From the NCBI RefSeq assembly GCF_001552075.1, contig NZ_BCQM01000003.1, positions 1 to 64,000 on the forward strand: 64,000 bases of DNA, given 5' to 3'. Positions 9,564-26,389 of the stretch are shown here, piece after piece. The notes beneath the pieces were generated by a model. It worked only from the letters and a program-made list of their open reading frames with translations. It was not told where the DNA came from and searched no databases. How positions within the stretch are numbered: position 1 is the first letter of the stretch; each line of letters opens with the position of its first letter. This DNA comes from Arthrobacter luteolus NBRC 107841 (GTDB lineage Bacteria; Actinomycetota; Actinomycetes; Actinomycetales; Micrococcaceae). Made by a program: the position numbers and the translations under genes.

Positions 9564-9685
9564 ACCCGGCGCAACCAAATGATCAGCAGGCTTATTCCTA
9601 ACCGGTGCGGTCAATCCGCTTTTGCGGACTGAACCTGACCGCAGATCCCTTGGAGCGTGCAGCAGCCAGGCCTACGATCGCTGGC

Positions 9686-10060
9686 ATGGACTGGAAAATC
9701 GAACTTGTGCCCGTGCCGGTGTCCGACGTCGACGCCGCCAAACACTTCTATGTGAACCAGGTGGGCTTCGCTGACGACTTCGACCAGCGGGTGGACGAGA
9801 ACCTGCGCTTCGTCCAGCTGACGCCGCCCGGGTCTGCCTGCTCCGTGGTGATCGGGGAAGGCACCACGGACATGGTGCCGGGAAGCCAGCGCATCCAGAT
9901 GGTGGTGCCGAGTGCCGCTGACGCCCGGCAGCAGCTGCTGAACGCGGGCGTCGAAACCAGCGAAGTCACGCCGCTGGACTGGGGTACGTTCGTGTACTTC
10001 AGTGATCCGGACGGCAACCAGTGGTCGCTGCAGGAGCTGCCGGCAATCGCTAAGGAGTAG
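9686..10060 (+). CDS. VOC-superfamily (glyoxalase-fold) protein
   Basis: This 124-residue single-domain protein shows the vicinal-oxygen-chelate pattern: PVPVSDVDAAKHFYVNQVGF at the start of the first beta-alpha-beta module and VYFSDPDGNQWSLQEL near the end, with the metal-ligand-type Glu. Such proteins are lyases, dioxygenases or resistance proteins. The function is not predictable. Its last 11 bases overlap the convergent nagB gene. Confidence 0.85.
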   Translation: MDWKIELVPVPVSDVDAAKHFYVNQVGFADDFDQRVDENLRFVQLTPPGSACSVVIGEGTTDMVPGSQRIQMVVPSAADARQQLLNAGVETSEVTPLDWGTFVYFSDPDGNQWSLQELPAIAKE

Positions 10061-10823
10061 GAAGCAGATTAGTCCGGCTGAGCAGATCAGCGCTGAGGCC
10101 AGCCCCGGCGCCGTCGGCCAGCAGGATGGTCACATCGGGATGCAGCTGCAGGATGGACGCGGGAACCTGCTCGGTCACCGGTCCCTGCAGTGCTGCGGCC
10201 AGGGCTTCGGCCTTGGCCGCGCCGCTGGCCAGCAATACCAGTGAACGCGCCGCACGGATGGTCCCCAGCCCCTGGGTCAGTGCCTGGGTGGGAACATCCT
10301 CCAGGGAGGAGAAGAACCGGGCGTTGGCCTGGCGGGTGCTCTCAGCGAGCTGGACAACCCGGGTGCGGGAGTCCAAGGGCGAGCCGGGTTCGTTGAAGGC
10401 AAGGTGCCCGTTGTTCCCGATCCCCAGGATCTGCACGTCCACTCCGCCGGCGGCGGAAATCGCGGCCTCATAGTCAGGGGCGGCCCGTTCCGGATCGGCA
10501 GCCGATCCATCCGGCACTGCCACCTGGCCGGCGTCGAGCCCCAGGGGCTCAACAACCTCCCGGCGGACCACTTCCGCATAGCTTTCGGGATGTCCCGGCG
10601 GCAGGCCCAGGTACTCGTCCAGGGCGAAGGCGCGCAGCGGCGGCAGGTCGTCCCGGCGTTGGGCCAGTGCCCGGTACAGGGACAGGGGGGAGGACCCGGT
10701 TGCCACTCCCAGCACCGGCAGGGCCCCCGGAAGGTGCGCTTTTCGAAGCCGGGACAGCACGGCGTCGGCAGCTGCCCCGCCCAGTTCGTCCAGGGTGGCA
10801 GCCAGATGAATCCGCAGGGTCAC
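10050..10823 (-). CDS. nagB: Glucosamine-6-phosphate deaminase (NagB)
   Basis: This 257-residue protein has both NagB active-site blocks: DEYLGL (Asp-69, general base) and GIGNNGHLAFNEP (His-140, Glu-145). The reaction is glucosamine-6-phosphate to fructose-6-phosphate plus ammonia. The position that is Asp-141 in the E. coli enzyme is Asn here (Asn-138); as I recall, this also occurs in Gram-positive homologues. The GTG start at 10823 overlaps the stop of the amidohydrolase. It is the last gene of the eight-gene operon and feeds the amino-sugar part of the unknown substrate into glycolysis. Confidence 0.88.
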   Translation of the reverse strand: MTLRIHLAATLDELGGAAADAVLSRLRKAHLPGALPVLGVATGSSPLSLYRALAQRRDDLPPLRAFALDEYLGLPPGHPESYAEVVRREVVEPLGLDAGQVAVPDGSAADPERAAPDYEAAISAAGGVDVQILGIGNNGHLAFNEPGSPLDSRTRVVQLAESTRQANARFFSSLEDVPTQALTQGLGTIRAARSLVLLASGAAKAEALAAALQGPVTEQVPASILQLHPDVTILLADGAGAGLSADLLSRTNLLPTP

Positions 10824-11899
10824 GCCGTTCTCTCCTTTTCCAGAATGCCATTGTTGAGGGCACCGTTGTTCAGGATACCCAGCGCACGGGCCAGTTCAGG
10901 ATCGGCCGGGCTCCAGCCGGCAATATCCAGCAGCGCGGCAGCGTTGGCGCCGAAGATTTTCTGCACGTCCACGGGCGGCATACCCATCTCCCAGCAGATC
11001 CTCAGCTGGTCCACCAGGTACCGCCGCGCGTAGCCGCGGGGGAACCAGGAGGAATCCGTGCCGAAAATGATCCGGTCCGGGCCATGGGTTTCGTAGAACC
11101 GCCGGAAGACGTCCTCCAGGGTCAGCTTCTGCGCCATAAACCGCACCCACTGGTTGGAACCGGAGGTATCCACCAGGACGTTCGGGCAGGCCCACATCAG
11201 GAACAACACCTGCTGGACGTGCTGGATTCCGAAGTGGGGAATCACAAAAGTCACATCGGGATGCCGTTTGGCCACCGTTTCCAGCCACGCCGGTTCGATC
11301 ATGGCGTTGTGCGCTATTCCGCCGGCAGATCCGCAGTGACCGAAGTGGATGAGGACCGGCACCTGGTGCTTGGCGGCGACCCGCCACACCGGATCGGCCC
11401 CCGGATCGTCGATGCGGGCGGACATCAGCGGAGCGAACAGCTTCAGTCCGCGCAGCCCGTGTTCCGTGACTGCCCGGTCGAAATCTGCTGCAGCGCCTGG
11501 CGCAAAGGGGTCAGCCATGGCAGCCATGCCCAGGAACCGCCCGTTGCCGCGGGCGGTCAGCCGGCCCATCGCCTCATCGCCGCCGGCAGTGACGAAGGCG
11601 GCGTACTCAACGTGGTGGTGGTCCAGCTCGTCCTGCCAGCGGTCGGCCTCCGCTTCCCAGCCCTGGTCCGCTTCAGCCGGTTCCGGATCGGCGAAGTCCC
11701 AGCTGCGCCGCCACGCGGCGGACATTCCGGCCACTTTGGCGGCCCGCCGGGCTGCTGCCGGGGAGGCGGCTTCGCAGGCGAACTGCCCGCCGGACAGGGC
11801 ACGGGTCAGCGGGTCCTGGGGCATCCGGAAATGCAGGTGAAAGTCGACAATGGAGATGCCCTGGACCACGGGACGGTTCCCGATCCTGGAAACGTGCAT
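10820..11899 (-). CDS. Amidohydrolase_2 family metal-dependent hydrolase
   Basis: This 359-residue TIM-barrel protein has the metal-site HxH in IVDFHLHF near residue 20, a mid-barrel His in VLIHFGHCGS, and the late Asp in IIFGTDSSWFPRG. The family (PF04909) includes decarboxylases, lactonases and sugar-acid hydrolases. The true substrate is unknown. ATG 11899 has GGAAGG upstream. It starts 10 bases after the PfkB kinase and overlaps nagB, so it belongs to the same operon. It could open a lactone or remove an acyl or carboxyl group from the imported conjugate. Confidence 0.8.
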   Translation of the reverse strand: MHVSRIGNRPVVQGISIVDFHLHFRMPQDPLTRALSGGQFACEAASPAAARRAAKVAGMSAAWRRSWDFADPEPAEADQGWEAEADRWQDELDHHHVEYAAFVTAGGDEAMGRLTARGNGRFLGMAAMADPFAPGAAADFDRAVTEHGLRGLKLFAPLMSARIDDPGADPVWRVAAKHQVPVLIHFGHCGSAGGIAHNAMIEPAWLETVAKRHPDVTFVIPHFGIQHVQQVLFLMWACPNVLVDTSGSNQWVRFMAQKLTLEDVFRRFYETHGPDRIIFGTDSSWFPRGYARRYLVDQLRICWEMGMPPVDVQKIFGANAAALLDIAGWSPADPELARALGILNNGALNNGILEKERTA

Positions 11900-11909
11900 A
11901 ACTACCTTC

Positions 11910-12845
11910 CTAGAGCGGCAAAGCCTCGGCCAGCTGCACTGCGGAACGCTGTTCCGGTGCGGTGGCAACGAGTTCGGTGGCGTAGCGGACGGCGGTCCCG
12001 AGTGCCTCTACGGGGGCCGCACCCCGTGCCAGGCAGGTCAGGAACGCAGCGTTGAAACCGTCCCCGGCGCCGGTGCTGTCCACGGGCTCCACCGGCTGGG
12101 CGGGTGAATGGCTCCATTCCCCGCTGGGCAGGGCCAGTCCGGCACCGTCCGGTCCGAGTTTCGCCACCACCAGGGTGCCGGTGGCGGCGGCCAGTTCCAG
12201 GGCCGCTGCCCGCGGGTCCTCGATGCCCGTCAGCCCGGTGAGCTCGTCCGAGTTGGGCAGGAATACGTCCACGCTGCGCAGCACCCCGCGGACCTCGGCC
12301 TGGACGTCACGGGTCCAGCCCTCGGTGGGCCAGCCGGTGTCCAGCACCGTCAGTGCTCCGGCTGCACGGGCGCGGGTGAACAGGCCTTCCAGCGCGGCGC
12401 CGCGGAGCTTGGGCAGCAGGAAGTAGCCGGCGAGCACCACGCAGCGGGCCGCCACGGCCTCCTCCGGAACATCGCCGGCGCCGAGCACCGACATGGCGCC
12501 GAGGGAGGAGATGAACGCCCGGTCACGCCCGGGTGCCTCGACGGCGACTGTCACACCGCTGGGCAGCTGCGGATCCGTGACCAGCAGCGCCCGCAGGTGC
12601 GGCAGATCCAGCTCGGACCGGACCAGGGCGGTGGAGGCATCATTGCCGACCCGGCTGACCAGCGTGGTCGGCTGGCCCAGCCCGGCACACCGCAGGGCGA
12701 GGTTTCCGGCGGAGCCGCCCAGCCGGATGCGGATGTCCGGCACCAGCGCTTCCGTGCCGGGCTCCGGCAGGGACGTAACGCCGGAAACCATGATGTCCAG
12801 GTTGGTATTGCCGACGACCGTCAGATCGTTCCGGACTGCGCTCAC
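11910..12845 (-). CDS. PfkB-family carbohydrate kinase
   Basis: This 311-residue ribokinase-like protein has the N-terminal substrate lid region with IRLGGSAGNLALRCAGLG and the ATP/catalytic signature DSTGAGDGFNAAFL (Asp as general base). It phosphorylates a sugar or sugar derivative with ATP. The GTG start at 12845 overlaps the stop of the lyase gene (GTGA). With NagB downstream, a product such as glucosamine 6-phosphate or a phosphorylated conjugate is plausible. A fructose-amine kinase role is another possibility. Confidence 0.87.
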   Translation of the reverse strand: MSAVRNDLTVVGNTNLDIMVSGVTSLPEPGTEALVPDIRIRLGGSAGNLALRCAGLGQPTTLVSRVGNDASTALVRSELDLPHLRALLVTDPQLPSGVTVAVEAPGRDRAFISSLGAMSVLGAGDVPEEAVAARCVVLAGYFLLPKLRGAALEGLFTRARAAGALTVLDTGWPTEGWTRDVQAEVRGVLRSVDVFLPNSDELTGLTGIEDPRAAALELAAATGTLVVAKLGPDGAGLALPSGEWSHSPAQPVEPVDSTGAGDGFNAAFLTCLARGAAPVEALGTAVRYATELVATAPEQRSAVQLAEALPL

Positions 12846-14332
12846 GCCGCGCCCGCCAGCTGCCGGGCACGGCCGAGCAGAAGCGCCAGGGCAGTCTCCA
12901 GCCCGGTGCGCAGCTCCGCGAACCGGGTGGCCAGCTCCTGCGCGGCCGCCAGCGCGCCGTCGGCTGTCACCTCGACGGCCTTGGTACCCGGGCTGCCTGC
13001 CTGAGTGCGGTCCAGGACGCGTTCCGGCTCCCGGCCGGCCGCGAGCGTCAGGTCTGCCAGCTCGGCACGGATTCCGGCGGCAGCCAGCGCCGCCAGGACC
13101 TGTTCCCGGGTCCAGGAGGTCGGGTCGCCTGTCTTGAAGAGGCGGCCGACGACGTCGTGCGCACCGCGCCAGGGCACGCCGGCTACCGCCAGGGCCTCCG
13201 CGACCGACGTCGTCGTGGCACCGGAGCGGACGATCTCCGCCAGCTCCGGCAGCCGCTGGACCTCGAACTCGGTGAGCAGGCCGTCGAGCATCCGCACGAA
13301 CCGCACCACCCGGTCTCCGGCACGCCACAGATGCTTCTGCACATCGGTGGTCGCATTGTTGGAGTCCTCGTACCAGCCTGAGTTGATATTGGCGTAGGTC
13401 GCGGACATGTCCGCGGCGGCGGCACCGGCCATGGAGACCATGTGTTCCAGGACCACCGGGTTCTTCTTCTGCGGCATGATCGAGGAGCCCTGGGTGTAGG
13501 CGTCGGGGGTGCGGACCCAGCCGAACGTCATCCATTCCAGCAGGACGCGGGAGAACCGGGCGCCGGTGGCGCAGATCCGGGCCTGCGCCGCGGCGAGGCG
13601 CATAAAGTGCTCGGCGCCGGCCACGGCTTCATAGCTGGAGGTAAAGGCAGAGTCGAAACCGAGCAGTTCCCGCAGCGTCTCCGGGTTGATCGGCACATCG
13701 GTTCCGGCGAACGCCGCGGAGCCCAGCGGGGAGACGTTCAGTTCCGCGTAGATGTCCAGGAGTTCGCGCCCCTGGCTGAGCAGCGCTTCGGAGAGGCCGC
13801 CGAGGACGTGGCCGATGGTGGTGGGCTGGGCGGGCCGCCGGTGGGTGAAACCGATGATCAGCTTGTCTGCATGGTCCTTCGCCAGGGCAGCGGCGTCGGC
13901 GGCTGCCTGGACCACCAGATCAGCCTGGTCCAGCAGCTGGCGCCGGAGCACCATCCGGAACGCACCGGCGTCGAGGTCGTTGCGGCTGCGGGCCAGCTGG
14001 ACGTCCAGCTCCGAGGTGGAAATGCCGCAGGCCGCGGCCAGCTGCTGTTCCATGAAGTAGTACGGGTCCTCCACGGAGCCGTCGAAGACATAGTCCTGCT
14101 TGCCGTCGCTGATCCGCTCCCAGAGCGTGAGCAGTCCCTTTTCCAGCCGGGCGGAGCGTTCGCGCGGGAGGATGCCCTCGTCGTCGAGCATCCAGACGTG
14201 GGCCAGGGACGCCTCCACCATTGGCGGGTAGATGAAGGACGCGGCCTCTTCGAAGGCATCCCGCAGGTGGTTGTCCCAGTACACGGACAGCTCGGGCCGG
14301 TCCTGAAGGGCGGGGCGGGGGATGGCGGTCAT
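12842..14332 (-). CDS. Argininosuccinate-lyase-like enzyme (aspartase/fumarase superfamily), atypical
   Basis: The 496-residue protein keeps the superfamily hallmarks: SRNDLDAG near residue 110, the catalytic-type His in FTHRRPAQPTTIGH, and the flexible Ser loop GSSIMPQKKNP. These enzymes split a C-N or C-O bond beta to a carboxylate and release fumarate or a similar enoate. The segment that in biosynthetic ArgH usually reads like EDIHMAIE is here DPYYFMEQQL, and the gene sits in a transport/sugar operon, not with arg genes. I therefore do not call it argH. ATG 14332 follows the permease stop by two bases. Confidence 0.8.
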   Translation of the reverse strand: MTAIPRPALQDRPELSVYWDNHLRDAFEEAASFIYPPMVEASLAHVWMLDDEGILPRERSARLEKGLLTLWERISDGKQDYVFDGSVEDPYYFMEQQLAAACGISTSELDVQLARSRNDLDAGAFRMVLRRQLLDQADLVVQAAADAAALAKDHADKLIIGFTHRRPAQPTTIGHVLGGLSEALLSQGRELLDIYAELNVSPLGSAAFAGTDVPINPETLRELLGFDSAFTSSYEAVAGAEHFMRLAAAQARICATGARFSRVLLEWMTFGWVRTPDAYTQGSSIMPQKKNPVVLEHMVSMAGAAAADMSATYANINSGWYEDSNNATTDVQKHLWRAGDRVVRFVRMLDGLLTEFEVQRLPELAEIVRSGATTTSVAEALAVAGVPWRGAHDVVGRLFKTGDPTSWTREQVLAALAAAGIRAELADLTLAAGREPERVLDRTQAGSPGTKAVEVTADGALAAAQELATRFAELRTGLETALALLLGRARQLAGAA

Positions 14333-14334
14333 AA

Positions 14335-16167
14335 CTATTTCACCGGCTTCAAATCGGGGTTTACGGTTTCGGATGCTGGTCGGGTGCCGGGAAGCGGCAG
14401 CGGGACTGCGGCGGAAGGGATGGGGCCCACCAGCGGGGTTTCCACAGTGGGACGACGGCGGCGGCGCAGCATCGCGGCGATGCCGCCGCTGCCGGGGTTC
14501 TCGAGGCGCTGGGAAATGATCAGCACAATCAGGATCAGCCCCATCTGCAGGGTGCCGTAGGCCGCGGCGGTGCCGAACTCGTTGGAGTAGATCCGGTTGT
14601 AGATCTCCACGGACAGGGGTGCGAAGCGCGCGGGGTAGACAACCACCGAGGCCACGTATTCGCCGAAGCCCTGGATGAACGCCATCAGCGCGCCGGCCAG
14701 GATGCCGCGGTACATCAGCGGAACGGTCACGGTGCGCAGCACGCGCCACGGTCCGGCGCCCAGGTTACGGGCGGCTTCCTCGACGGACGGATCGATCTGC
14801 GCCAGGGCGGCGTTGGCTGACCGGAAGACCAGCGGCAGGAAGCGCACGAAGTAAGCGACGGGCAGGATCCACAGCGAACCGATCAGCACCTGGCCCAGGT
14901 TGAACGGCGTGGGGCTGGCGAACGCGGTGACCAGGTTGACGCCCACCACGGTGCCGGGCAGGGCCCACGGAATCATCACCATCACGTCCAGCAGTCCCTT
15001 GCCGGGGCCTTTCCACCGGGTGACGACCCAGGAGGCGAGCACACCGACGACGGTGCAGGCAATCATGGCGATGAACGCCATCTGGGAGCTGACCAGGATC
15101 GGCCGGAGGGTGGAGGGGTCGGTGAAGATGCGGGCGAAGTTCCCCAGCGTGTACTGGTTCGGTAGGATCTGCACCGTCCAGGAGCCGTCCACGGTGAAGG
15201 CCAGCAGCACGATCACGGCGGCGGGCGCCATGAGGATCAGCACCAGCAGGGTGGAACCGAGGCCGGCGCCGAGCCGGGGGAGCGTGCCGTGGATGACCTT
15301 GACGGCCTGCGGGGTGCCTTTCGAGGCGCTGCGGTGCACGCGCCGGTTCTGGTACCAGCGCATGGCCAGCAGGAAGAGGATGGAGACGATGGAGAGCACT
15401 GTGGACTGGGCCGCCGCCAGCTCGTACGCGCCGGAGGTCCGCGAGGCGACAATCTGCATGGTCAGGGTCTGCACGTTGTAGAACTGCGGCGCGGTGAAGG
15501 AAGCCATGGAGACCATAAAGGTCAGCAGCGCGCCGGAGACCAGGGCCGGGGTCAGCATGGGAAGCAGCACGGTGCGCCACATGGTGAACCGGCTGGCGCC
15601 GAGGTTCAGGGCTGCTTCTTCCATCGACGCATCGGATCCGGCGAGGCCGGAGGAGACCGCCAAATAGAAATAGGGGTACATGGTCATGGTGTGGACCAGC
15701 AGCACGCCGATGACGCCGTTCGCGGAGACCGCACCTGGATCTGCACCGAAGTACTGGGCCAGGAACCGGGGGAGGATGCCGCTTTCCGCGTACAGGAAGT
15801 AGAAGGACACCGCGCCGATCAGCGGCGGCAGGGCCATGGGCAGCATCGCGAAGAGCCGCAGTACGTTCCGGCCGGGAAAATCGAAGCGGGTCAGGAGCAC
15901 GGCCAGCGCGGTGCCGATGACGCCGGTGGTGATCACCGAGACAACGGAGATGCCGACGGACAGGCCCAGGGCCCGGCCGGAGTTCCCGCCGAAGAAACCG
16001 CTGTAGTTGTCCACGCCGCCGTCAACGCTGGTCCGGGCCGTGGCGAACATCGGAATAACGATGTACATCAGCAGGATCAGGACCAGCGGAATGGCCAGCC
16101 AGTAGATGAACCGGTCGGAGGACGTGGTTCCGCTGCGCATCCGCAGCTTCTGCGCGAGGCCGGTCAC
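14335..16167 (-). CDS. ABC transporter permease with two fused membrane domains (AfuB/FbpB type)
   Basis: This 610-residue protein has two tandem binding-protein-dependent permease domains. Each carries an EAA loop: EEAALNLGASRFTMWRTVLLP in the first half and EEAARNLGAGPWRVLRTVTVP in the second. About twelve membrane helices are expected. This one-gene architecture is typical of importers of ferric iron, sugar phosphates and phosphonates (FbpB, AfuB, PhnU classes). The GTG start overlaps the ATPase stop (GTGA). It works with the adjacent ATPase and lipoprotein. Confidence 0.9.
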   Translation of the reverse strand: MTGLAQKLRMRSGTTSSDRFIYWLAIPLVLILLMYIVIPMFATARTSVDGGVDNYSGFFGGNSGRALGLSVGISVVSVITTGVIGTALAVLLTRFDFPGRNVLRLFAMLPMALPPLIGAVSFYFLYAESGILPRFLAQYFGADPGAVSANGVIGVLLVHTMTMYPYFYLAVSSGLAGSDASMEEAALNLGASRFTMWRTVLLPMLTPALVSGALLTFMVSMASFTAPQFYNVQTLTMQIVASRTSGAYELAAAQSTVLSIVSILFLLAMRWYQNRRVHRSASKGTPQAVKVIHGTLPRLGAGLGSTLLVLILMAPAAVIVLLAFTVDGSWTVQILPNQYTLGNFARIFTDPSTLRPILVSSQMAFIAMIACTVVGVLASWVVTRWKGPGKGLLDVMVMIPWALPGTVVGVNLVTAFASPTPFNLGQVLIGSLWILPVAYFVRFLPLVFRSANAALAQIDPSVEEAARNLGAGPWRVLRTVTVPLMYRGILAGALMAFIQGFGEYVASVVVYPARFAPLSVEIYNRIYSNEFGTAAAYGTLQMGLILIVLIISQRLENPGSGGIAAMLRRRRRPTVETPLVGPIPSAAVPLPLPGTRPASETVNPDLKPVK

Positions 16168-17258
16168 GGTGCCACCAGCCAGACCCGGTCCGGGTGCGGC
16201 GCCAGGACTACCGGGTCGCCGGGGGAAACCCGGTCCTCGGAATCCGGCACAGAGACCACCAGGTTGTTGCCATTCCAGTCCACTTCATACACGTTGACCG
16301 CACCGGTGAACTCCGCGGTGCGGACCGTGCCCTTCAGCTCACCGGCACCGTTGGCGGCGGCCGTGCCCGCGTCCCGGAGTACGGCAAAGGACTCCGGCCG
16401 CAGGCTGACCGCTGCCGTGTCCCCGCGGGAAACATCAGCCGACGGAGTGCCGGAAACGCGGGGTGCACGCAGCACGGTGCCGTCCTCCAGCTGGACCTGG
16501 ACGCTGTCTCCGCCGGCTTCCAGGATGGTGCAGGCCAGGACGTTGGAGCGGCCGATGAAGCGGGCCACGAAGGAGGTGGCCGGGCGGTGGTAGACCTCCC
16601 GGGGCGGTGCCACCTGGTGCAGCCGCCCGGATTCAAGGATCGCCACGCGGTCGCTCATGGCCATGGCCTCTGCCTGGTCGTGGGTGACGTAGATGCTGGT
16701 GATGCCCGCGGCTTTCTGGGTGCCGCGGATTTCGGCGCGGGTCTCTTCGCGCAGTTTGGCGTCCAGGTTGGAGAGCGGCTCATCGAGCAGCAGCACCGAT
16801 GGCTGGATCACCAGGGCGCGGGCCAGGGCAACGCGCTGCTGCTGGCCGCCGGAGAGCATGTCGATCCGCCGGTCGGCGTATCCGTTCAGGCCAACCTGCT
16901 CCAGTGCGCGGTCCACGCGCTTGGTTTTTTCGGCACGGGAGGTGCGCCGCACGGAGAGTCCATAGCCGACGTTGGCGCGCACGCTCATGTGCGGGAACAG
17001 TGCGTAGTTCTGGAACACCATGCCGGTGTCACGGCGGTTCGGTGCCATGTTCGTGACGTCCTTGTCATCGAACAGGATGCGCCCGCGGGTGGGCTGGATG
17101 AAGCCGGCAACCATGCGCAAAGTCGTGGATTTACCGCATCCGGAGGGGCCCAGGAGGGTGAAGAACTCGCCGTCTTCAATGGTGAGGTCGAGGTCCGCGA
17201 CCGATGGGGCTGCGCCCGGATAGCGCTTTTCGATTGATTCGAGAAGGACTCGTGTCAT
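16164..17258 (-). CDS. ABC transporter ATP-binding protein (FbpC/PotA class)
   Basis: The 364-residue ATPase has Walker A GPSGCGKST, Q-loop VFQNYALFPHMS, signature LSGGQQQR, Walker B LLLDEPLSNLD and the H-loop VTHDQAEAM. A C-terminal TOBE-type regulatory domain covers about residues 240-360. It energises the fused permease. GGAGAG precedes the ATG. The gene is separated from the binding-protein gene by a strong hairpin, which should make this gene and the downstream genes less expressed than the binding protein. Confidence 0.92.
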   Translation of the reverse strand: MTRVLLESIEKRYPGAAPSVADLDLTIEDGEFFTLLGPSGCGKSTTLRMVAGFIQPTRGRILFDDKDVTNMAPNRRDTGMVFQNYALFPHMSVRANVGYGLSVRRTSRAEKTKRVDRALEQVGLNGYADRRIDMLSGGQQQRVALARALVIQPSVLLLDEPLSNLDAKLREETRAEIRGTQKAAGITSIYVTHDQAEAMAMSDRVAILESGRLHQVAPPREVYHRPATSFVARFIGRSNVLACTILEAGGDSVQVQLEDGTVLRAPRVSGTPSADVSRGDTAAVSLRPESFAVLRDAGTAAANGAGELKGTVRTAEFTGAVNVYEVDWNGNNLVVSVPDSEDRVSPGDPVVLAPHPDRVWLVAP

Positions 17259-17298
17259 GGCTGCTCTCCGCAGAGGTAGGGGGTGAATAGAGAGGGGA

Positions 17299-17325
17299 GG
17301 GCGGGCGGCGTTTCGCCGCCCGCCC
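17299..17325. terminator. Intra-operon hairpin (attenuator or RNA-stabilising stem)
   Basis: GGGCGGGCGGCG and CGCCGCCCGCCC form a perfect 12-bp stem around a TTT loop. It lies between the stop of the binding-protein gene (17337) and the ATPase start (17258), which is the classical place for partial termination or 3'-end protection of the binding-protein message. Confidence 0.7.
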
Positions 17326-17336
17326 CGGGAGGCGTC

Positions 17337-18410
17337 TTAGCCCTTGCCCTTGATGTTCTCGGCCCAGTAGCCGATCCATTCGGTTTCGTTCGTGCCGATC
17401 CGGTCCCAGTCGACGTCCATTTCCTTCAGGTCGAGCTCGGCCAGCCAGGCGGGCTGCTCGGTCATCGCGATGGAGGGGATCTGGTAGTACGTCTCGGACA
17501 GTTCCTTCTGGGTGTCTTCGCTCAGCAGGAATTCCAGGAACGCGTCCGCCGCGTCGGAGGACGGACCGTTCTTGATCTTGGCGACGCCGTCAACCAGCAT
17601 CGGTGCACCGGATTCCGGGACCACCGGGGTGTAGGGAGCGTTCTGGCCATCGATCTGCAGCATGACATCCTGCAGGTTCCACGCGCTGGCGGCTGCTTCC
17701 TGGCGGGTGACGCGCAGGTACAGGTCCGTCGGATTCGCGGCGTAGACCTTGGTGTTGGCGTCCAGCTGGCGCAGCCACTCGTAGCCGGCTTCCGGGGAAC
17801 CGGACTCGTCGTACTTGCGGTCGATCATGGCCGAGTAGATGCTGCGCATGGTGCCGGAGGCCTCCACGTCGCGGATGGCGATCTTGTCTGCCATTTCCGG
17901 GGCAATCAGGTCGTCCCAGTCGGTGGGTGCCTGGTCGGCGGTGAGCATGTCGTGGTTGTAGAAGATCACCTCGGCCAGCTGCATTTCACCCACCCAGAGT
18001 CCGGCCGGATCGCGGAGCTCTTCCGGCACGGCGTCGACGACGGCGTCGGGGGCCGGGGCCAGGATGTCGTCTCCAGCGGCCTGCTTCATCTGCTGGCCGG
18101 TGCCGCCCCACCAGATGTCGCCCTGCGGGTTGGCCTTCTCGGCGCGGATACGTTCCAGTGCTTCCTGCGCGCCGAGGGTCAGGATTTCGACCTTGCCGGC
18201 GTACTCCGGGTTCGCTTCCTCGAAGTCGGCTACGACTGCTTCGGCCAATCCCTTGTCACGGGCGGTGTAAATGGTGAGGGTTCCGCCTTCGGAACCTTCA
18301 GCGCCGCCCGACGGCGATTCGTCCAGTCCACAGGACGAGAGCGCAAGCGCCAGGGCGAGTCCGCCGGCAACGGTGACGAGCGGGCCGCGGATTTTGCGGT
18401 TCAGAGCCAT
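17337..18410 (-). CDS. ABC transporter substrate-binding lipoprotein (AfuA/FbpA class)
   Basis: This 357-residue protein has a lipoprotein signal (ALALALSSCG, Cys ~27). A class-F periplasmic-binding fold opens with TLTIYTARDKGLAEAVVADFEE and QGDIWWGGTGQQM. Family members bind ferric iron, sugar phosphates, phosphonates or other small anions. AAGGAG lies well placed before the ATG. It is the second gene of the operon, after the ROK regulator. The sugar-related partners favour an anionic sugar ligand over iron, but this is inference. Confidence 0.88.
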   Translation of the reverse strand: MALNRKIRGPLVTVAGGLALALALSSCGLDESPSGGAEGSEGGTLTIYTARDKGLAEAVVADFEEANPEYAGKVEILTLGAQEALERIRAEKANPQGDIWWGGTGQQMKQAAGDDILAPAPDAVVDAVPEELRDPAGLWVGEMQLAEVIFYNHDMLTADQAPTDWDDLIAPEMADKIAIRDVEASGTMRSIYSAMIDRKYDESGSPEAGYEWLRQLDANTKVYAANPTDLYLRVTRQEAAASAWNLQDVMLQIDGQNAPYTPVVPESGAPMLVDGVAKIKNGPSSDAADAFLEFLLSEDTQKELSETYYQIPSIAMTEQPAWLAELDLKEMDVDWDRIGTNETEWIGYWAENIKGKG

Positions 18411-18422
18411 GTACTTCTCCTT

Positions 18423-18458
18423 GGTTGTGTAGTGCTGGTGGGTTGTGTAGTGCTGGTG
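18423..18458. repeat. Perfect 18-bp tandem duplication in the ROK-binding-protein gap
   Basis: GGTTGTGTAGTGCTGGTG is repeated exactly at 18423-18440 and 18441-18458, directly upstream of the ribosome site of the binding-protein gene. The repeat could be a protein-binding site or a slippage duplication. Confidence 0.75.
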
Positions 18459-18477
18459 CGGTGGAAAACGGGTGGGA

Positions 18478-19683
18478 TCACCCGGCGGGGGTGATCAGGC
18501 TGGCGGGGTCCTCCAGGACGCGGGCGACGGCGCCGAAAAGGACGGCTTCGACGCCCAGGGAAGCGAAGGTGACCTCCGGTGCGGCCGGCGCTGCGGACCG
18601 GATCCGGTCAGCCAGCCCGGTGCGGGCGTCGTCGTCCAGGCCGATGGCATCACCGGAGAACAGGACCAGTGCCGGGTTCAGGACGCACGCGCAGACGACG
18701 GCAGCCCAGGCCCAGGCATCCAGCACCTCGGTCCGCAGTGCGGCGGCGGCGGGTTCGCTGCAGAGCCGGGGGATCACGTTGGCCTCGCTGACATCCAGGC
18801 CGGCGGTCCGTGCTGCGGCGGCAATGGCCGGGGTGCTCCAGCGTTCCTCGAAGCTGCCGCGGTTTCCGTGCGGCAGCGGGGTGAGGCCGATGGGGAGGAA
18901 TCCGACTTCGCCCGCGGAGCGGGTGGAGCCGTGCAGCAGGCGCCCGCCGCTGAGGATGGTGGCGCCGATTCCCTCCGCGATGTGGATCAGGACCAGATCA
19001 TCGACGCCGGCCGCGGCTCCGGCGCTGCGCTCGCCGAGGGCGATGAGGTTTACGTCGTTCTCCACGGTGACCGGTAGTCCGGTCCGCCGGGCCAGGGCCT
19101 GGGCCAGCTGGGGATCTCCGGCGGCGGCGAAGGCGGGCGCCAGGCTCACGGTGCCGTCCGCGGCGACCACACCGGGCAGCGCGAGGATCAGCCGGGAGGG
19201 GCGGTGGCCGGTAGGTTCACCGAGACCGGCCACGGCGAGGGCAGTGGCGCTGACCGGATCTGCCGGATCGAAGGGGGCGTCCTGGGTGGCCAGCACCCGG
19301 GCGTCGAGGTCAATGAGGCTGGCCCGGATGCGGCCACCGCTGACTTCGGCGACGATCAGCGCGATGGCCGTGCGGTCGAGTTCGACCAGCGTGCGGCGCC
19401 GTCCGCCGGTTGATTCCCGGTGCCCGACCTCGTGGAGGTAGCCCATGCCCTGGAGTTCCTGGACGATGCCGGTGACGGTGGAAGGGCTGTAGCCGGTGAC
19501 TGCCGCGAGGTCCGTCCGGGAGATCGGGCCGGTGCTGAGCAGGGCTCCCATCACGGATTCCACCCGGATCCGGCGCAGTTCGCTGCGTCCGGTAGGCGCA
19601 CTGTTCTGAGCTGCACTGCTCTGGGCTGCGCCGAACTGGGCTGCGCCGTACTGAGCAGCACTGCTCTGTGAGGTGGATGACAT
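18478..19683 (-). CDS. ROK-family transcriptional regulator
   Basis: The 401-residue protein starts with a Gln/Ala repeat (AAQ units, residues 8-29). It continues with a winged helix-turn-helix (~36-90) and a ROK sugar-kinase-like domain with ENDVNLIALGE and the glycine-rich AEGIGATILSGG. The usual zinc site of ROK proteins (CxCGxxGCxE) is replaced by HGNRGSFEE, so the structural zinc is probably absent. It is the first gene of the operon it presumably controls. Its promoter and a 12-bp inverted repeat overlap its own start codon, which indicates autoregulation. The inducer is probably a sugar or amino sugar. Confidence 0.9.
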   Translation of the reverse strand: MSSTSQSSAAQYGAAQFGAAQSSAAQNSAPTGRSELRRIRVESVMGALLSTGPISRTDLAAVTGYSPSTVTGIVQELQGMGYLHEVGHRESTGGRRRTLVELDRTAIALIVAEVSGGRIRASLIDLDARVLATQDAPFDPADPVSATALAVAGLGEPTGHRPSRLILALPGVVAADGTVSLAPAFAAAGDPQLAQALARRTGLPVTVENDVNLIALGERSAGAAAGVDDLVLIHIAEGIGATILSGGRLLHGSTRSAGEVGFLPIGLTPLPHGNRGSFEERWSTPAIAAAARTAGLDVSEANVIPRLCSEPAAAALRTEVLDAWAWAAVVCACVLNPALVLFSGDAIGLDDDARTGLADRIRSAAPAAPEVTFASLGVEAVLFGAVARVLEDPASLITPAG

Positions 19684-19718
19684 TCTTACTTTATACGGTG
19701 AAGAAAGTAAGAATGCAA
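19681..19718 (-). promoter_or_regulatory. ROK promoter with overlapping 12-bp inverted-repeat operator; likely leaderless transcript
   Basis: Reading leftward, -35 TTGCAT (19718-19713), a 17-bp spacer and -10 TATAAA (19695-19690) place the transcription start at or within a base or two of the A of the ATG at 19683. A perfect inverted repeat has arms CATTCTTACTTT (19681-19692) and AAAGTAAGAATG (19704-19715). It covers the -10, the -35 edge and the start codon. There is no ribosome site. This is an autorepression geometry on a leaderless mRNA. Confidence 0.7.
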
Positions 19719-19962: not shown

Positions 19963-22773
19963 TTACCGCGTGGCCTCGGCCAGGTACTCCAGGATGTGCC
20001 GGTAGGACTGGCCGGTGGCCTTGCTCATGCCGATCTCGCAGGTGCGGTTCAGGGACGCGTAGCCGTCGAACGTGCGGGCATTGATCTCAGCGGCCTGAGT
20101 GTCCGTCGCGGAGGCGGTGAGTTCGGGATGCAGCAGGCCGCGGTCGCCGGCGAAGGCGCAGCAGCCCCAGCTCGGCGGCACGAACACTTCGCCGCTGACC
20201 GCCGAGGCGATCGTATGCAGGGCGTCATTGGCGCCGAGCTGCGTCGAGGAGCAGGTCGGGTGCAGCGCCAGGGAGCCGAGTTTCGCCGTAACCTCCAGCC
20301 GGGGCAGCACCGTTTCGCTGACAAAGTCCACCGCATCAACGAACCTGAGCCCGGGGTAGACGGGGCTGGATCCGGCCAGCCGCTTCATCGTCTCCAGGCC
20401 TTCGGTGCAGGACGCCGCATCACAGACCACAGGCAGCTCCCCGCCGCCGCTGGCCACCCACAGGTTCGCCAGGACCTTCTCCGTCATGGCTTCGTAGCCG
20501 GCGGTGAATCCCTTGGACTTCCACGGCGTTCCGCAGCACAGGTCGCCGATCCCGTTGGGCACCCGGACTCCGACGCCGGCGCGTTCGCAGAGTTCCAGGA
20601 ACGCGGTACTGGCTCCTTCGCCGCCCTCGGCGGGACCGAACATGGTTCCGATGCAGGCCGGGAAGAACACGGCGACCGGATCCGGGTCCTCCCGCGGGGT
20701 GCGGCGGGTACCGCCGGCCGGCAGCACTGTTTCATAGGACTGGACATTGTCCGCCCCCAGCAGTGCCCGTCCCACGGTGGTCGCCAGCTTGGGCAGGGGA
20801 GCCGGCACAGCCTTGGCCAGGCTCAGGGCCTTGCCGCCCAGGGTGGTCACGGTTCCCCAGTGCCCGGCGGCGGTTTTCCAGCCGGCCCCGGCCACCGGGT
20901 TGGCGTTTTCGGCGCGCAGCCGGCGGACCAGGTCCCCGGTGTTGATCAAAACCGGGCACGCGGTGACACACATACCGTCAGCGGCACAGGTCTGCACGCC
21001 GTCATAGTCGTAGTCGGTGCGCAGCTCTGCAGCCAGGGCGGCGTCCCCGCGGGCCTCGGCCGCCGCGAGTTCCCGCCGCAGCACAATCCGCTGGCGGGGT
21101 GTGGTGGTCAGGTCCTTGCTGGGGCAGACCGGCTCGCAGTAGCCGCATTCGACGCAGCGGTCCACTTCCTCCTCGACGGTGGGTGCGACCTTCAGGTTCT
21201 CGATGTAGGCGCGGGGATCGTCGTTGATGAGGACACCGGGATTGAGCAGGTTCGGCGGGTCGATCAGGGCCTTGACCTCGCACATGATCCCGTAGAGTTC
21301 GTCGCCGTACTGGCGGCGGACATAGGGAGCCATGATCCGGCCGGTGCCGTGTTCGGCCTTCAGCGAGCCGCCTTCACCCAGCACCAGGTCCACCATCTCC
21401 TCGGTGAACGCCTCATAGCGGGCCAATTCTGCCGGGTCGGAGAAGTTCTCATTGAGCATGAAGTGGATGTTGCCGTCCTTGGCATGCCCAAAGATCACCG
21501 AGTCCCGGTAGCGGTGCTCAGTGAAGAGCCGGGCCAGTTCGCCGCAGGTGCGGGCCAGTGACGGCACGGGAACCACGATGTCTTCCAGCAGGGCGTTGGT
21601 GCCGGAGGGACGGGCACCGGCGACCGTGGTGTACAGGCCCTTGCGCAGGTGCCACATCGCTGCCCGGTCCGCCGCCTTGGACGTCATGGCAAATGGAGCG
21701 GCCAGGTGCAGGGAGTCGAAAAGCGGGTGGGAGGCTTCGCGTTTGGCGTCCAGTTCCTCCGCGGTGGCTGCCTGGTGTTCCACCAGCAGGGCCGCGTGCG
21801 CCTGGACGTCAAGGTTGCGCAGTTCCTGGGGAGCATCGGCCGCGAGCTGCGCCACCCGCAGGGACGTGGCGTCCATCAGTTCGATCGTGGCCAGCCCGGA
21901 AGCGGTGAGCTCCGGCAGCGCGGTGGCCGCGGCGTCCAGGGTGTCGAAGAACATCAGGCCGGTGGCGACCTTCGGCAGTGCGGGGATGGTGCGGAACGTT
22001 GCCTGCGCCACGAACCCCAGGGTGCCCTCGCTGCCAATCATCAGGTGGGCCAGGATATCCACCGGGCTCTCGAAGTCCAGGAAGGAATTGAGTCCGTAGC
22101 CCATGGTGTTTTTCATGGAGAACAGCCGGGTGATGGTGGCAACCGAGTGCGGGTTGGCGACGATCCGTCCGCGGAGCCGCAGCAGGCCGTCGAACAGCTC
22201 CGGTTCCAGGGCGCGCAGCCGCTGCTCGGCATCCGGTGCCGCGGTGTCCAGTACGGTTCCGCCGGCAAGGACCAGCACCATGGACTCCAGCGTCCGGTAG
22301 GTGTTGAACTCGGTGCCGCAGGCCATGCCGGAGGAGTTGTTGGCGACTACACCGCCAATCGTGCAGGCGATCTCGCTGGCCGGGTCCGGCCCGAGTTTCC
22401 GGCCGAACGCCGCGAGGCGGGAATTGACTGCCCGCACCGTGGCGCCGGGTGCCACCCGGACCCGGGTGCCGCCGTCGAGCACCTCGATCTCCCGGAAGTG
22501 GTGCCGGGTGTCAATGAGCAGGCTGTCACTCAGTGCCTGGCCGGAGAGGGAGGTTCCGCCGGACCGGAAGGTGGCGGGGATACCGAGCTCCCGGCTGCGC
22601 CGCAGCAGGTCAGCCACCTCAGCGGTGTTCGTGGGTGTGGCCACTGCCTGGGGGATCAGCAGGTAGTGGGAGGCATCATGCGCCATTTTGCGGCGGTCGA
22701 TTTCCCGGGTGCTGATTCCCCCGCTGCCAAGGGCGTTGATTGCTGGGGCTGAAGATTCTGCTGTGACTGACAT
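19963..22773 (-). CDS. FAD-binding and Fe-S-binding oxidoreductase (D-lactate dehydrogenase/GlcD-GlpC fusion type)
   Basis: The protein has about 936 residues. The N-terminal half is a PCMH-type FAD domain (FRSGGTSLSGQALSD, IGGVVANNSSGMACG) with the FAD-oxidase C domain (GHAKDGNIHFMLNE, EHGTGRIMAPY). Then come two [4Fe-4S] ferredoxin motifs (CVECGYCEPVCP, and CAADGMCVTACP with a CxxxxxC variant) and a C-terminal pair of CCG-type cysteine domains (CCGTPWKSKG, WGCCAFAGDRG). This architecture oxidises D-2-hydroxyacids, chiefly D-lactate, to the keto acid and passes electrons to the quinone pool. ATG 22773 has AGGA six bases upstream; a TTG at 22818 is the alternative. It is the third gene after the histidine kinase and response regulator. 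Confidence 0.85.
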   Translation of the reverse strand: MSVTAESSAPAINALGSGGISTREIDRRKMAHDASHYLLIPQAVATPTNTAEVADLLRRSRELGIPATFRSGGTSLSGQALSDSLLIDTRHHFREIEVLDGGTRVRVAPGATVRAVNSRLAAFGRKLGPDPASEIACTIGGVVANNSSGMACGTEFNTYRTLESMVLVLAGGTVLDTAAPDAEQRLRALEPELFDGLLRLRGRIVANPHSVATITRLFSMKNTMGYGLNSFLDFESPVDILAHLMIGSEGTLGFVAQATFRTIPALPKVATGLMFFDTLDAAATALPELTASGLATIELMDATSLRVAQLAADAPQELRNLDVQAHAALLVEHQAATAEELDAKREASHPLFDSLHLAAPFAMTSKAADRAAMWHLRKGLYTTVAGARPSGTNALLEDIVVPVPSLARTCGELARLFTEHRYRDSVIFGHAKDGNIHFMLNENFSDPAELARYEAFTEEMVDLVLGEGGSLKAEHGTGRIMAPYVRRQYGDELYGIMCEVKALIDPPNLLNPGVLINDDPRAYIENLKVAPTVEEEVDRCVECGYCEPVCPSKDLTTTPRQRIVLRRELAAAEARGDAALAAELRTDYDYDGVQTCAADGMCVTACPVLINTGDLVRRLRAENANPVAGAGWKTAAGHWGTVTTLGGKALSLAKAVPAPLPKLATTVGRALLGADNVQSYETVLPAGGTRRTPREDPDPVAVFFPACIGTMFGPAEGGEGASTAFLELCERAGVGVRVPNGIGDLCCGTPWKSKGFTAGYEAMTEKVLANLWVASGGGELPVVCDAASCTEGLETMKRLAGSSPVYPGLRFVDAVDFVSETVLPRLEVTAKLGSLALHPTCSSTQLGANDALHTIASAVSGEVFVPPSWGCCAFAGDRGLLHPELTASATDTQAAEINARTFDGYASLNRTCEIGMSKATGQSYRHILEYLAEATR

Positions 22774-22820
22774 ACGATCCTGATCCGAGACATCGACGGG
22801 GCTTTGGCCCCGGTTCAAAT

Positions 22821-23510
22821 CTAGGCCCGGGACCCGCCTTCAGTGAAATGGTCAGGCCACACGGGAGGCGCAGCCTGCAGATACTGCAGCACGGCCAGGA
22901 CCCGCCGGTGGTCCCCGGCCGCTGGATGGAGGTTCAGCTTGCCGAATATTGAGGTGATGTTCTTCTCCACTGCTCCGGCGGAGAGGAACAGTTCAGCACA
23001 GATGCCGGCATTTGTCCGTCCCTGGGCCATGAGCGCCAGCACCTCGCGTTCGCGCGGGGTCAGGGATTCCAGCCCCGCGTGGCGTCCGGCGCCCATCAGC
23101 TGCCGCACCACCTCCGGGTCCAGCACCGTTTCGCCCGCACGGATGCGTTCTAAAGCGTGGAGGAAATCAGCGACATCCGCCACCCGGTCCTTGAGCAGAT
23201 AGCCGGTGCCGCGGGGCTGGCCGGCGAAAAGCTGCGCGGCGTAGCGGGTTTCAACATACTGGGAGAGCAGCAGGACGCCGATCTCCGGGCGGGTATCCCG
23301 CAGCTGCAGTGCGGCGCGGATCCCTTCATGGGTATGGGTTGGCGGCATCCGGTTGTCCAGGATGACGACGTCGGGCTCGGCGGTTTCCAGCGCTGTGAAC
23401 AGTTCTTCGGCGTCGCCGGCGGCCGCGAGCACCTGGTGCCCGCGGCCGTCCAGCAGTTCGACCAGCCCGGCGCGGAGCAGGGCGGAGTCCTCCGCGATGA
23501 CGATCTTCAT
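22821..23510 (-). CDS. NarL/LuxR-family response regulator
   Basis: This 229-residue regulator has a receiver domain with acidic pocket IAEDSALLRAG, phospho-acceptor Asp-52 in VVILDNRMPP, and a Lys switch in GYLLKDRV. A LuxR-type helix-turn-helix (LTPREREVLALMAQGRTNAGICAELFLS) follows. It lies 53 bases after the histidine kinase and 47 bases before the dehydrogenase, so it is probably the cognate regulator of this two-component pair. The target is unknown; the adjacent dehydrogenase is the first candidate. Confidence 0.92.
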   Translation of the reverse strand: MKIVIAEDSALLRAGLVELLDGRGHQVLAAAGDAEELFTALETAEPDVVILDNRMPPTHTHEGIRAALQLRDTRPEIGVLLLSQYVETRYAAQLFAGQPRGTGYLLKDRVADVADFLHALERIRAGETVLDPEVVRQLMGAGRHAGLESLTPREREVLALMAQGRTNAGICAELFLSAGAVEKNITSIFGKLNLHPAAGDHRRVLAVLQYLQAAPPVWPDHFTEGGSRA

Positions 23511-23563
23511 TCAAGTAGCTTGCCCCACCGGGGCTGCACTTCCGAAACCGGTCAGGAAACGGC

Positions 23564-25240
23564 TCAGGAAAGCGGCAGGAAGACCGTCACCACGGTCGGC
23601 CCTCCGGCCGGAGAGGAAATCCGCATTGTGCCGTCCACCGTCCGGACCCGTTCCGCCAGGCCTGCCAAGCCAGTTCCGGCCCCGGTGCCTGTGCCTTCAC
23701 GTCCCGCACCTGCTGAGCCTGCTGCACCTGCTGCGCCGCCGGTGCCGTTGTCCTTGACGCTGAGCACCATGTCAGCTCCCTCCTCGACCACCAGGATGCT
23801 GACGCGTGAGCCCCCTGAGTGCTTGACAGCGTTGGTCACCAGCTCGGCTACCACGTAGTAGGCAATGGCTTCCACCGCGGGCGAGGGACGGACCTGCAAC
23901 CGGTAGGAAAGGTCGACGGGCAGCGGGGCTGTGGCAGCCAGCGATTCCAGCGCGGTGTCCAGGCCGTCGTTGAGCACGGCCGGGCGGATCCCGCGGGCGA
24001 GGCCGCGCAGGTCTTCCAGGGCTTCCTTGGCCGTGCCGTGGGCGCTGTCCAGGAGATGCTGCAGTTCCGCGGACACTTCGGTGCCGGCCGCCCGGTCCCG
24101 GGCGTCGCCGAGCTTCATGGCGATGGCGACCAGCTGCGCCTGGGTCCCGTCATGCAGGTCCCGTTCAATCCGGGCCAGCCTGGCGTCAGCGGTAGTCACG
24201 GAGCTGCTCCGGCTGGCTTCCAGATCCCGGACACGGTACTGGCCGCCGGTGGGGCCCAGCAGTGCCGCGGCGAGCGATGCCTGCAGGCGGGCCATGCCGT
24301 TGTTGAGCGCTGGCCAGAGCAGGAAGGTGAACAGGACACCCACCGCGAAGTAGGCGGCCTGCCACCAGAAACTGTCAGCGAAGACCCCCGGGAGGATCTG
24401 GCTGCCACGGTGCCAGGTTCCGTCGGCCGCCTGCTGCGGGGGCAGCCACCGGGACCAGAACCAATGCGTCATGCTGCCCAGCCCGGCGACCAGGAAACTG
24501 ATGCTCAGGCAGGCCGCGGTCACCGACGTGACGAAGCTGACGCCCATGTGGGCCAGGGCCCGCCAGCCCGCCGTGTCGCTGAGCCCGGAGCGGAGGAAGC
24601 CGAAGAATCCCGGCCGGGGGGTGAACGGCGGGGGTGCGTCGATCGGACGGCCAAGCAGTGTTGCCGCGAGGGAACGGTTGATGGTTCCCCAGTACCGGGC
24701 GGCAGCCACCATGGCCGCCGGGACGATCAGGCCCACAAAAGTGACCAGGAATGAGGCTCCCAGCGATACGGTGCTCACGGCGTAGGCCAGCGCGAAGGGC
24801 GCCAGCAGCAGCGACAGGCTGTGGTAGCCGAACGCCCGCCAGGTGCTGCTGCGGAAAAACGCCGGGCGGCGTCCTGCTGCCGGCCGGGGTGCCTGGGCAC
24901 GCTGGGAATGCGGTGCGCGCTCGGAATGCGGGATGTGCCGGGGATGCCGCGGGTGCGGGGTGCGCTGAGGGTCCTGCATTGGCCCAGTGTTTTCGGGCTC
25001 AGAGTTTTCGGGCTCATTGTTCCCGGACTCAGCTTTTTCGATGGGCTGGGTCTGCTGGGTGGTGTGCGTGAACTGGGTGGCTTGAGCGACCTGGACGGAC
25101 TGAGTGTACTGAGCGGCCTGCGTGTCCTGCGCGGACTGCTTGTCCTGGCCGGATTGTGTGTACTGAGCGGGCTGCGCCGGGTGGGGGGCGGCAGGCTCAC
25201 CGGACGAGGCGCCGGGATCGGAGGCTTGGGTGGGTGTCAT
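23564..25240 (-). CDS. Sensor histidine kinase (HisKA_3/NarL-partner class) with Gln-rich N-terminal repeat
   Basis: The protein has about 558 residues. The first ~100 are low-complexity, with repeating Gln-x-x-Gln units (QYTQSGQ, QDTQAAQ, QYTQSVQ). About four membrane helices follow with a putative-sensor-like domain. The dimerisation/phosphotransfer helix has phospho-His in RIERDLHDGTQAQLV, and the C terminus is a HATPase_c domain. It signals to the downstream response regulator. ATG 25240 is chosen; a TTG 24 bases upstream is also in frame. The Gly/Ala-rich insert near residue 510 also looks repeat-expanded. Confidence 0.88.
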   Translation of the reverse strand: MTPTQASDPGASSGEPAAPHPAQPAQYTQSGQDKQSAQDTQAAQYTQSVQVAQATQFTHTTQQTQPIEKAESGNNEPENSEPENTGPMQDPQRTPHPRHPRHIPHSERAPHSQRAQAPRPAAGRRPAFFRSSTWRAFGYHSLSLLLAPFALAYAVSTVSLGASFLVTFVGLIVPAAMVAAARYWGTINRSLAATLLGRPIDAPPPFTPRPGFFGFLRSGLSDTAGWRALAHMGVSFVTSVTAACLSISFLVAGLGSMTHWFWSRWLPPQQAADGTWHRGSQILPGVFADSFWWQAAYFAVGVLFTFLLWPALNNGMARLQASLAAALLGPTGGQYRVRDLEASRSSSVTTADARLARIERDLHDGTQAQLVAIAMKLGDARDRAAGTEVSAELQHLLDSAHGTAKEALEDLRGLARGIRPAVLNDGLDTALESLAATAPLPVDLSYRLQVRPSPAVEAIAYYVVAELVTNAVKHSGGSRVSILVVEEGADMVLSVKDNGTGGAAGAAGSAGAGREGTGTGAGTGLAGLAERVRTVDGTMRISSPAGGPTVVTVFLPLS

Positions 25241-26350: not shown

Positions 26351-26389
26351 GGCCCAGCGCCGGTGGCGCCGGGAGAACGGGACCGGCCG

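Follow-up and report, generated by a model that had tools for sequence, protein, structure and literature searches.

We analyzed an operon of eight same-direction open reading frames (ORFs) on the minus strand, at positions 10050-19683 of a 64,000-nucleotide stretch of the Arthrobacter luteolus NBRC 107841 genome (contig NZ_BCQM01000003.1, positions 1 to 64,000; hereafter the window). The operon starts with a ROK-family transcriptional regulator carrying a helix-turn-helix and a ROK domain (18478-19683; Pfam ROK, 3.2e-25, and HTH_IclR), followed by a solute-binding lipoprotein of the AfuA/P5PA type (17337-18410; family SBP_bac_6/11), an ATP-binding cassette (ABC) transporter ATPase with a TOBE domain (16164-17258; ABC_tran and TOBE_2) and a fused ABC permease containing two BPD_transp_1 stretches (14335-16167). 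The remaining genes encode a putative fumarate-eliminating lyase of the ArgH superfamily (12842-14332; Lyase_1, 5.9e-31), a PfkB-family sugar kinase (11910-12845; PfkB, 5.4e-37), an Amidohydro_2 protein (10820-11899; 3.7e-34) and a NagB-like glucosamine-6-phosphate deaminase (10050-10823; Glucosamine_iso). In each case the Pfam match agrees with the family assigned in an earlier reading of the letters alone (the sequence-only reading). The junctions are also as that reading described them from the ATPase onward, with 4-base GTGA overlaps at ATPase/permease, lyase/kinase and amidohydrolase/NagB, and gaps of 2 bases between permease and lyase and of 10 bases between kinase and amidohydrolase. 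Wider gaps occur at the front of the operon, 67 bases between the ROK gene and the binding protein and 78 bases between the latter and the ATPase, and the ATG codons of the lyase (14332) and the amidohydrolase (11899) sit within longer open frames.

Using the lyase as query, we gathered 34 loci besides the window after removal of duplicates, so that the lyase is by definition present in 34/34. Orthologs distinct from ArgH were found among 148 relatives in 8 genomes, own genome included, at identities of at least 60%, the next best match being about 34% identical. At E <= 1e-70 the lyase was detected in 14 of 395 family genomes, and a profile search at E <= 1e-100 retrieved it from 8 of 396 genomes at order level and 2 of 396 at phylum level, own genome counted each time. 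A scan of named genomes gave 26 loci, covering Arthrobacter, Cryobacterium, Propionibacteriaceae, Brachybacterium, Actinotalea, Tessaracoccus, Galactobacter, Saccharopolyspora, Saccharomonospora, Actinomadura and Helcobacillus. The order binding protein, ATPase, permease, lyase is kept, beyond what chance would give, in all 32 further loci (of 34) with a covering contig, two other genes being interposed between permease and lyase in genome G670. Orthologs of the binding protein (53-95% identical) are present in 32 of the 34 loci, the remaining two (L030 and L045) being cut by contig ends; the ATPase and the permease are each found in 33, the PfkB kinase in 31, and the ROK gene in 31 as well, being absent from genome G445 and lost to the contig ends in L030 and L045. 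The amidohydrolase is present in 22/34 (the contigs of L038 and L050 stop before its place) and NagB in 7/34. The gene set proposed in the sequence-only reading is thus co-conserved, although not as a unit of eight: NagB, and to a lesser extent the amidohydrolase, lie outside the universal core, and NagB is a local addition. We consider it highly probable that these genes form a genuine conserved operon for the catabolism of an acidic amino-sugar conjugate. In genome G341 (L038, positions 10494-11300, and also L046), a kinase remnant of 63 residues (about 69 codons) is followed by an ORF that by eye resembles an ISL3-type transposase, and the operon there seems to be broken.

The sequence-only reading placed the lyase in a fumarate-eliminating superfamily and left room for its being a genuine ArgH. 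The best NCBIfam model is indeed argH (9.6e-63), yet the score of 212.7 bits falls short of the curated equivalog cut-off of 279.5, and a separate ArgH, bearing the ArgH loop, is encoded in the same genome (G000:C12:69404-70552). When 17 of the 35 known lyases were compared with 13 ArgH proteins, the RSRND, TH, AQP and GSSIMPQK-NP motifs were invariant in 17/17 lyases and 13/13 ArgH, in agreement with membership in the superfamily that comprises ArgH, PurB, fumarase and ethylenediaminedisuccinate (EDDS) lyase. The loop PLAYNRDxQE, found in 13/13 ArgH and presumably in contact with arginine, is replaced by WxEDSNNATTDVQ in 17/17 lyases. As the catalytic motifs are invariant and the ArgH loop is replaced, the enzyme has probably kept the elimination chemistry and acts on a leaving group other than arginine. 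Its nearest solved structures, 6rx8 and 6g3d, are labelled argininosuccinate lyase; we take both to be EDDS lyase.

In 10 of the 34 further loci, lyase and kinase are fused into a single ORF, about 795-870 codons long (L049; L050, open at the contig end; L051-L053; L055; L056; L065; L083 of genome G1077; and L084 of genome G1094). L056 is counted here because one ORF spans both domains, the kinase match extending one codon beyond the stop. Such a fusion speaks strongly for consecutive steps, the two enzymes probably acting one after the other. No amidohydrolase was found in the fused loci, the contig of L050 being too short to show one. In G670, where no PfkB gene was found, the lyase is followed by a ROK-family kinase-like gene, which points to a hexose-type substrate for the kinase.

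The binding protein aligns best to P5PA, 8x1a and AfuA (4r72) rather than to FbpA structures, supporting the AfuA-type assignment of the sequence-only reading. For that reading, a ferric-iron binder would have counted against the proposal. In the iron binder 2pt1, the metal is presumably bound by a Tyr-Tyr pair; the window protein has Gln-Asp at the aligned positions, as expected of an AfuA-type binder and disfavoring ferric iron. On the other side, the close match 8x1a is labelled as a binder of an iron(III) compound.

The ROK regulator scores far under the cut-off of the NagC- and Mlc-like NCBIfam models. Across its start codon lies a perfect 10-bp inverted repeat, TTCTTACTTT-N11-AAAGTAAGAA (19683-19713), which is the sole match of this pattern within the 64-kb window and is likely the ROK operator. 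The same repeat, or one that is nearly identical, ranks first upstream of the ROK gene in 9 other loci, from the Arthrobacter group plus one Cryobacterium (L027, L028, L032, L033, L034, L035, L037, L047 and L054). In the remaining loci scanned, which include L029, L031, L038/L046 and those of Saccharopolyspora, Actinomadura and the fused clade, it was not the best repeat or was not found (the scan covered all loci except L068, L083 and L084). The ROK protein would repress the operon by binding the palindrome at its own start. In G209 (L033, 15771-16757), an iolC gene (TIGR04382, over cut-off) lies shortly upstream of the ROK gene, which may be a coincidence.

An indication of the substrate comes from relatives in which a divergent gene for an exported PIG-L protein adjoins the operon. 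This arrangement is seen in 10 of the 34 loci, namely 9 of the 10 fused ones plus G670 (L049, L050, L051, L052, L053, L055, L056, L065, L084 of G1094, and L068/L085 of G670). The protein is about 900-1030 amino acids long and combines an N-terminal export signal with PIG-L, NEW3 and CBM9 domains. Among the nine N-termini read (L050 was left out), eight carry, by eye, an S/T-RRxxL motif of the twin-arginine type, and that of L085 a plain signal. Seven of the ten genes were scanned with Pfam: PIG-L and CBM9 exceeded the cut-off in all seven and NEW3 in six, the exception being L065 (22.2, cut-off 24.4). Full-length identities of 57-59% served to assign the remaining three. AHPDDE and HGNH are invariant in 10/10, in keeping with the AHPDD(E) and distal His zinc ligands of PIG-L/LmbE enzymes. 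In the Helcobacillus locus (L065, 1827-4618), the gene is broken into two overlapping frames, one for the PIG-L domain and one for the NEW3/CBM9 part, which suggests a frameshift or a sequencing error. A review (PMC4101496) gives N-acetyl- or N-acyl-glucosamine cores as the substrates of the LmbE/PIG-L enzymes known by 2014, among them BshB, acting on N-acetylglucosaminyl-malate, and Bca, acting on bacillithiol conjugates. Through this family, the PIG-L neighbor links the pathway to a conjugate of N-acyl-glucosamine without recourse to NagB.

We also found a parallel cassette in which a paralogous PIG-L/NEW3/CBM9 gene is accompanied by an ABC importer, a PfkB kinase, a GH4 glycosidase and a DeoR regulator. 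It was characterized in 12 PIG-L loci away from the lyase, four of them (L069, L070, L072 and L074) in genomes with the lyase elsewhere and eight (L096-L103) taken from the 37 genomes of the order with such a protein; ORFs were chosen by a composition heuristic of our own, and L071 and L073 were left out of the GH4 scan. A GH4 glycosidase lies near the PIG-L paralog in 9/12 loci, none being found in L101, L069 or L070. A common PfkB kinase occurs in 10/12 (L072, whose copy served as query, L074 and L096-L103), and NgcE-like binders in 9/12. In Brachybacterium G457, one PIG-L gene is present in each cassette type. A common plan, completed in one case by a glycosidase and in the other by a lyase, suggests that the step parting the sugar from its aglycone falls to the lyase. 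The substrate of the sister cassette is possibly the glucosamine (GlcN)-inositol of mycothiol, or else the cassette may serve chitobiose-type scavenging; the former is a lead from a single Actinomadura locus, L072, where iolC (over cut-off), iolE and iolG (both under) are adjacent. A tree of the two kinase families, which form separate clades with long branches, was uninformative as to a sister relation between them.

The sequence-only reading assigned no role to the amidohydrolase. In this protein, HxH, Lys153, His185, His222 and Asp282 are invariant among the 12 sequences aligned (12/12) and would suit a metal hydrolase, judging by known ligand patterns. The protein has no NCBIfam match at 1e-3, and so falls outside NagA as defined by TIGR00221. 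Its structure model (predicted local distance difference test score, 66) gave no decisive fold match, as the 50 best Foldseek matches are non-specific, spanning decarboxylases, a hydratase, uronate isomerases and proteins of unknown function. As a search of seven genomes from the window's genus turned up no full-length PIG-L/NEW3/CBM9 homolog, we offer the guess, weakly supported, that the Amidohydro_2 protein is a cytoplasmic N-deacylase of the conjugate. This guess is weakened by the presence of both PIG-L and the amidohydrolase in G670 and also in most Saccharopolyspora and Actinomadura genomes, the PIG-L homologs of these two genera being located elsewhere; for the same reason we do not claim a mutual exclusion of the two, near-true as it is for adjacent genes. 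The NagB-like protein carries a GIGNNGHLAFNEP motif (by eye) and scores 209.3 bits against a cut-off of 236.9 for TIGR00502, and 281.3 against 326 for NF001684. Elsewhere in the genome, a NagB over the curated cut-off is encoded in all 10 fused-clade genomes. At its 3′ end, the NagB-like gene of the window shares an 11-base convergent overlap (10050-10060) with a plus-strand gene, glyoxalase-like by eye, at 9605-10060.

Based on these data, the substrate is most likely an acidic conjugate of glucosamine, most simply glucosaminyl-malate (GlcN-Mal), with or without an N-acyl group. To our knowledge, GlcN-Mal is the natural glucosaminide whose aglycone could leave as fumarate. It is the backbone of bacillithiol, a thiol made by Bacillota and others. 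In the proposed pathway, lineages with a fused lyase would use the exported PIG-L protein to remove an N-acyl group, cysteinyl or acetyl, outside the cell; in the window's lineage, the Amidohydro_2 protein would perhaps do so inside it. The AfuA-type binder and the ABC importer would take up the resulting dicarboxylate anion, the importer being assigned by family and its ligand by fit. The ArgH-like lyase would then release the malyl group as fumarate by beta-elimination and free the sugar, a chemistry that we infer from the superfamily and the kept catalytic motifs. Phosphorylation by the PfkB kinase, which could also precede the elimination, would give glucosamine-6-phosphate, and NagB, encoded in the operon or elsewhere in the genome, would yield fructose-6-phosphate and ammonia. 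BshC was not found in any of 35 genomes (35/35; Bacillus subtilis and two further controls gave a positive result), so that the compound would be foreign to these bacteria and its use a form of scavenging. Bacillithiol is given in PMC4360819 as Cys-GlcN-malate, at 2 mM in growing Bacillus pumilus.

Several observations weigh against this interpretation. Malate as the acid is a proposal based on its fit to a known natural product. The PIG-L neighbors score far under the cut-offs of the BshB and Mca models (31-46 bits against 182.5 for BshB1 in the four genes scanned), outside the BshB subfamily, and their CBM9 and NEW3 domains might hint at a polymeric substrate. No PIG-L gene is adjacent in 24 of the 34 loci, including all those of the window's genus, and none was found beside the fused locus of G1077 (L083) or, at 1e-100, in that genome. 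The PIG-L/NEW3/CBM9 family is broader than the lyase pathway, since at E <= 1e-100 it occurs in 37 of 396 genomes of the order as compared with 8 of 396 for the lyase. Between lyase-linked and GH4-linked PIG-L domains we found two consistent differences (Ala versus Leu/Val/Thr, and Ala versus mainly Ser), and two positions are no evidence for group-specific residues that recognize malate. Turning to the later steps, the idea that the amidohydrolase substitutes for a missing NagA was rejected, as NagA matches are present in 35/35 genomes, 14 of them over cut-off; in the own genome, the NagA-like gene (G000:C4:105522-106673) reaches 209 bits, under the cut-off of 225.65. A second NagB-like gene lies beside it at G000:C4, which makes the operon copy an extra one. 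With TIGR00502, NagB went undetected in six of 35 genomes, and four more gave matches of 24-28 bits only. Nine of those ten encode NagB-II-like SIS proteins scoring 160-214 bits, which exceeds the range we took for GlmS (130-143 bits) and falls short of the cut-off of 430, in a search that discriminates weakly, all 14 control genomes matching too and none over cut-off. In three Actinomadura these SIS proteins adjoin NagA, and in the tenth genome, Cryobacterium G453, neither NagB nor a NagB-II-like SIS protein was found. The divergent operon of G670 carries, between its permease and amidohydrolase genes, a creatininase-family gene (L068, 6947-7987) that the pathway leaves unexplained. Finally, in G445 (L036) importer and lyase occur without ROK, PfkB or amidohydrolase genes. 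Upstream of that locus, on the opposite strand (900-3492), lie a LacI-like and a ribokinase-like gene (both by eye) and RpiB (Pfam), and it is conceivable that the ribokinase-like gene stands in for the kinase.

Other substrates were therefore considered. The conjugate could join an amino sugar, through O or N, to an acid resembling malate or aspartate and have a source other than bacillithiol, for instance a surface polysaccharide of which it is a fragment. Domains of the CBM9 and NEW3 kind, as borne by the PIG-L protein, are typical of enzymes acting on polymers, and ligands vary among AfuA-group binders; we are aware of no other abundant natural product of that kind than bacillithiol and its precursors, no search having been aimed at one, and we regard this alternative as rather unlikely, if far from negligible. 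Of the two examples offered in the sequence-only reading for its amino-sugar conjugate, GlcN-Mal fits the exported PIG-L protein found beside 10/34 loci, and the amino-sugar end product stands with it; the Amadori-type aspartate compound fits less well. From fructosyl-aspartate, the lyase would free 1-amino-1-deoxyfructose and fumarate, to be phosphorylated by PfkB and deaminated by NagB. A secondary amine on succinate is the classical leaving arrangement of ArgH and PurB, and PfkB kinases operate in fructoselysine pathways, the match of the window kinase to the fructoselysine 6-kinase model being weak (31.3 bits, cut-off 247). Such a route is nevertheless improbable: the exported PIG-L protein would have no evident role, an FrlB/FraB-type SIS deglycase is not among the eight genes, and the pairing of PIG-L paralogs with a GH4 glycosidase suggests glycosides.

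Two further alternatives concern the lyase and the binder rather than the sugar. The operon might take up and break down an aminopolycarboxylate metallophore resembling EDDS or iminodisuccinate, through an iron-type binder and an enzyme of the EDDS-lyase type, in line with the nearest structures of the lyase, taken here as EDDS lyases, and with a binder of the Fe3+/AfuA group whose near match bears an iron-compound label. The Gln-Asp in place of Tyr-Tyr speaks against iron, and a sugar is indicated by the lyase-fused kinase as well as by the NagB and PIG-L genes, each present in part of the loci, making this very improbable. That the enzyme is a genuine argininosuccinate lyase, in an arginine or nucleotide side path, we consider hardly tenable and reject: argH is its top model, but the sub-cut-off score, the second ArgH gene and the loop replaced in all 17 lyases compared speak against it.

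Returning to GlcN-Mal as the preferred substrate, we judge the chances to be even that it is this compound, derived from bacillithiol, that the operon serves. The fuller proposition, of a dedicated actinobacterial catabolism of bacillithiol, the thiol of neighboring Bacillota, in which the sugar-malate bond is broken by an ArgH-type beta-elimination instead of a glycosidase, with a sister GH4 cassette for another glucosaminide, perhaps GlcN-inositol, is advanced tentatively, as something we doubt slightly more than we believe. If true, it would provide a fate for bacillithiol after the death of the producing cell, a function for a paralog of ArgH that profile searches place nearest to argininosuccinate lyase, and a novel mode of opening a glycosidic bond, by a glycoside-cleaving lyase that attacks the aglycone; the exported multi-domain PIG-L proteins would become testable as scavenging amidases. 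Among the titles and abstract openings listed by searches of the open-access literature, we found no report on this operon or on the catabolism of bacillithiol or GlcN-Mal by other bacteria. Next to the operon, the window contains a lactate-type island (19963-31265), with a FAD/4Fe-4S oxidase at 19963-22818 (Pfam) and, named by eye, a GntR-like regulator, an LldP-like permease and Lut-like genes.

With ArgH (TIGR00838) and EDDS lyase, the lyase shares the superfamily, the GSSIMPQKxNP catalytic loop and the RSRND and TH motifs; it differs from ArgH in being about 30% identical to it, in its WxEDSNNATTDVQ loop, and in its linkage or fusion to a sugar kinase rather than association with arginine genes. 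The importer is comparable to the sugar-phosphate importer AfuABC in the sequence class of its binder and in the class of its ATPase and permease, although the permease is single and fused here and the profile similarity of the binder to AfuA amounts to only about 100 bits. The PIG-L neighbor shares with BshB and Bca an AHPDDE-bearing PIG-L domain, weak BshB1 and Mca matches and, as proposed here, N-acyl-GlcN as substrate class; unlike them, it is exported, measures about 900-1030 amino acids with NEW3 and CBM9 domains, and flanks a catabolic operon in genomes where BshC was not found. The fructose-asparagine (Fra) and fructoselysine (Frl) operons likewise combine an importer, a PfkB-family kinase and an amino-sugar-like logic, with a SIS deglycase where the present operon has a lyase and a NagB-type deaminase. 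A further parallel is the sister cassette, which shares the exported PIG-L protein, an ABC sugar importer and a PfkB kinase, and in which an NgcE-like binder is found, inositol genes lie alongside at L072, and a GH4 glycosidase takes the place of the lyase.

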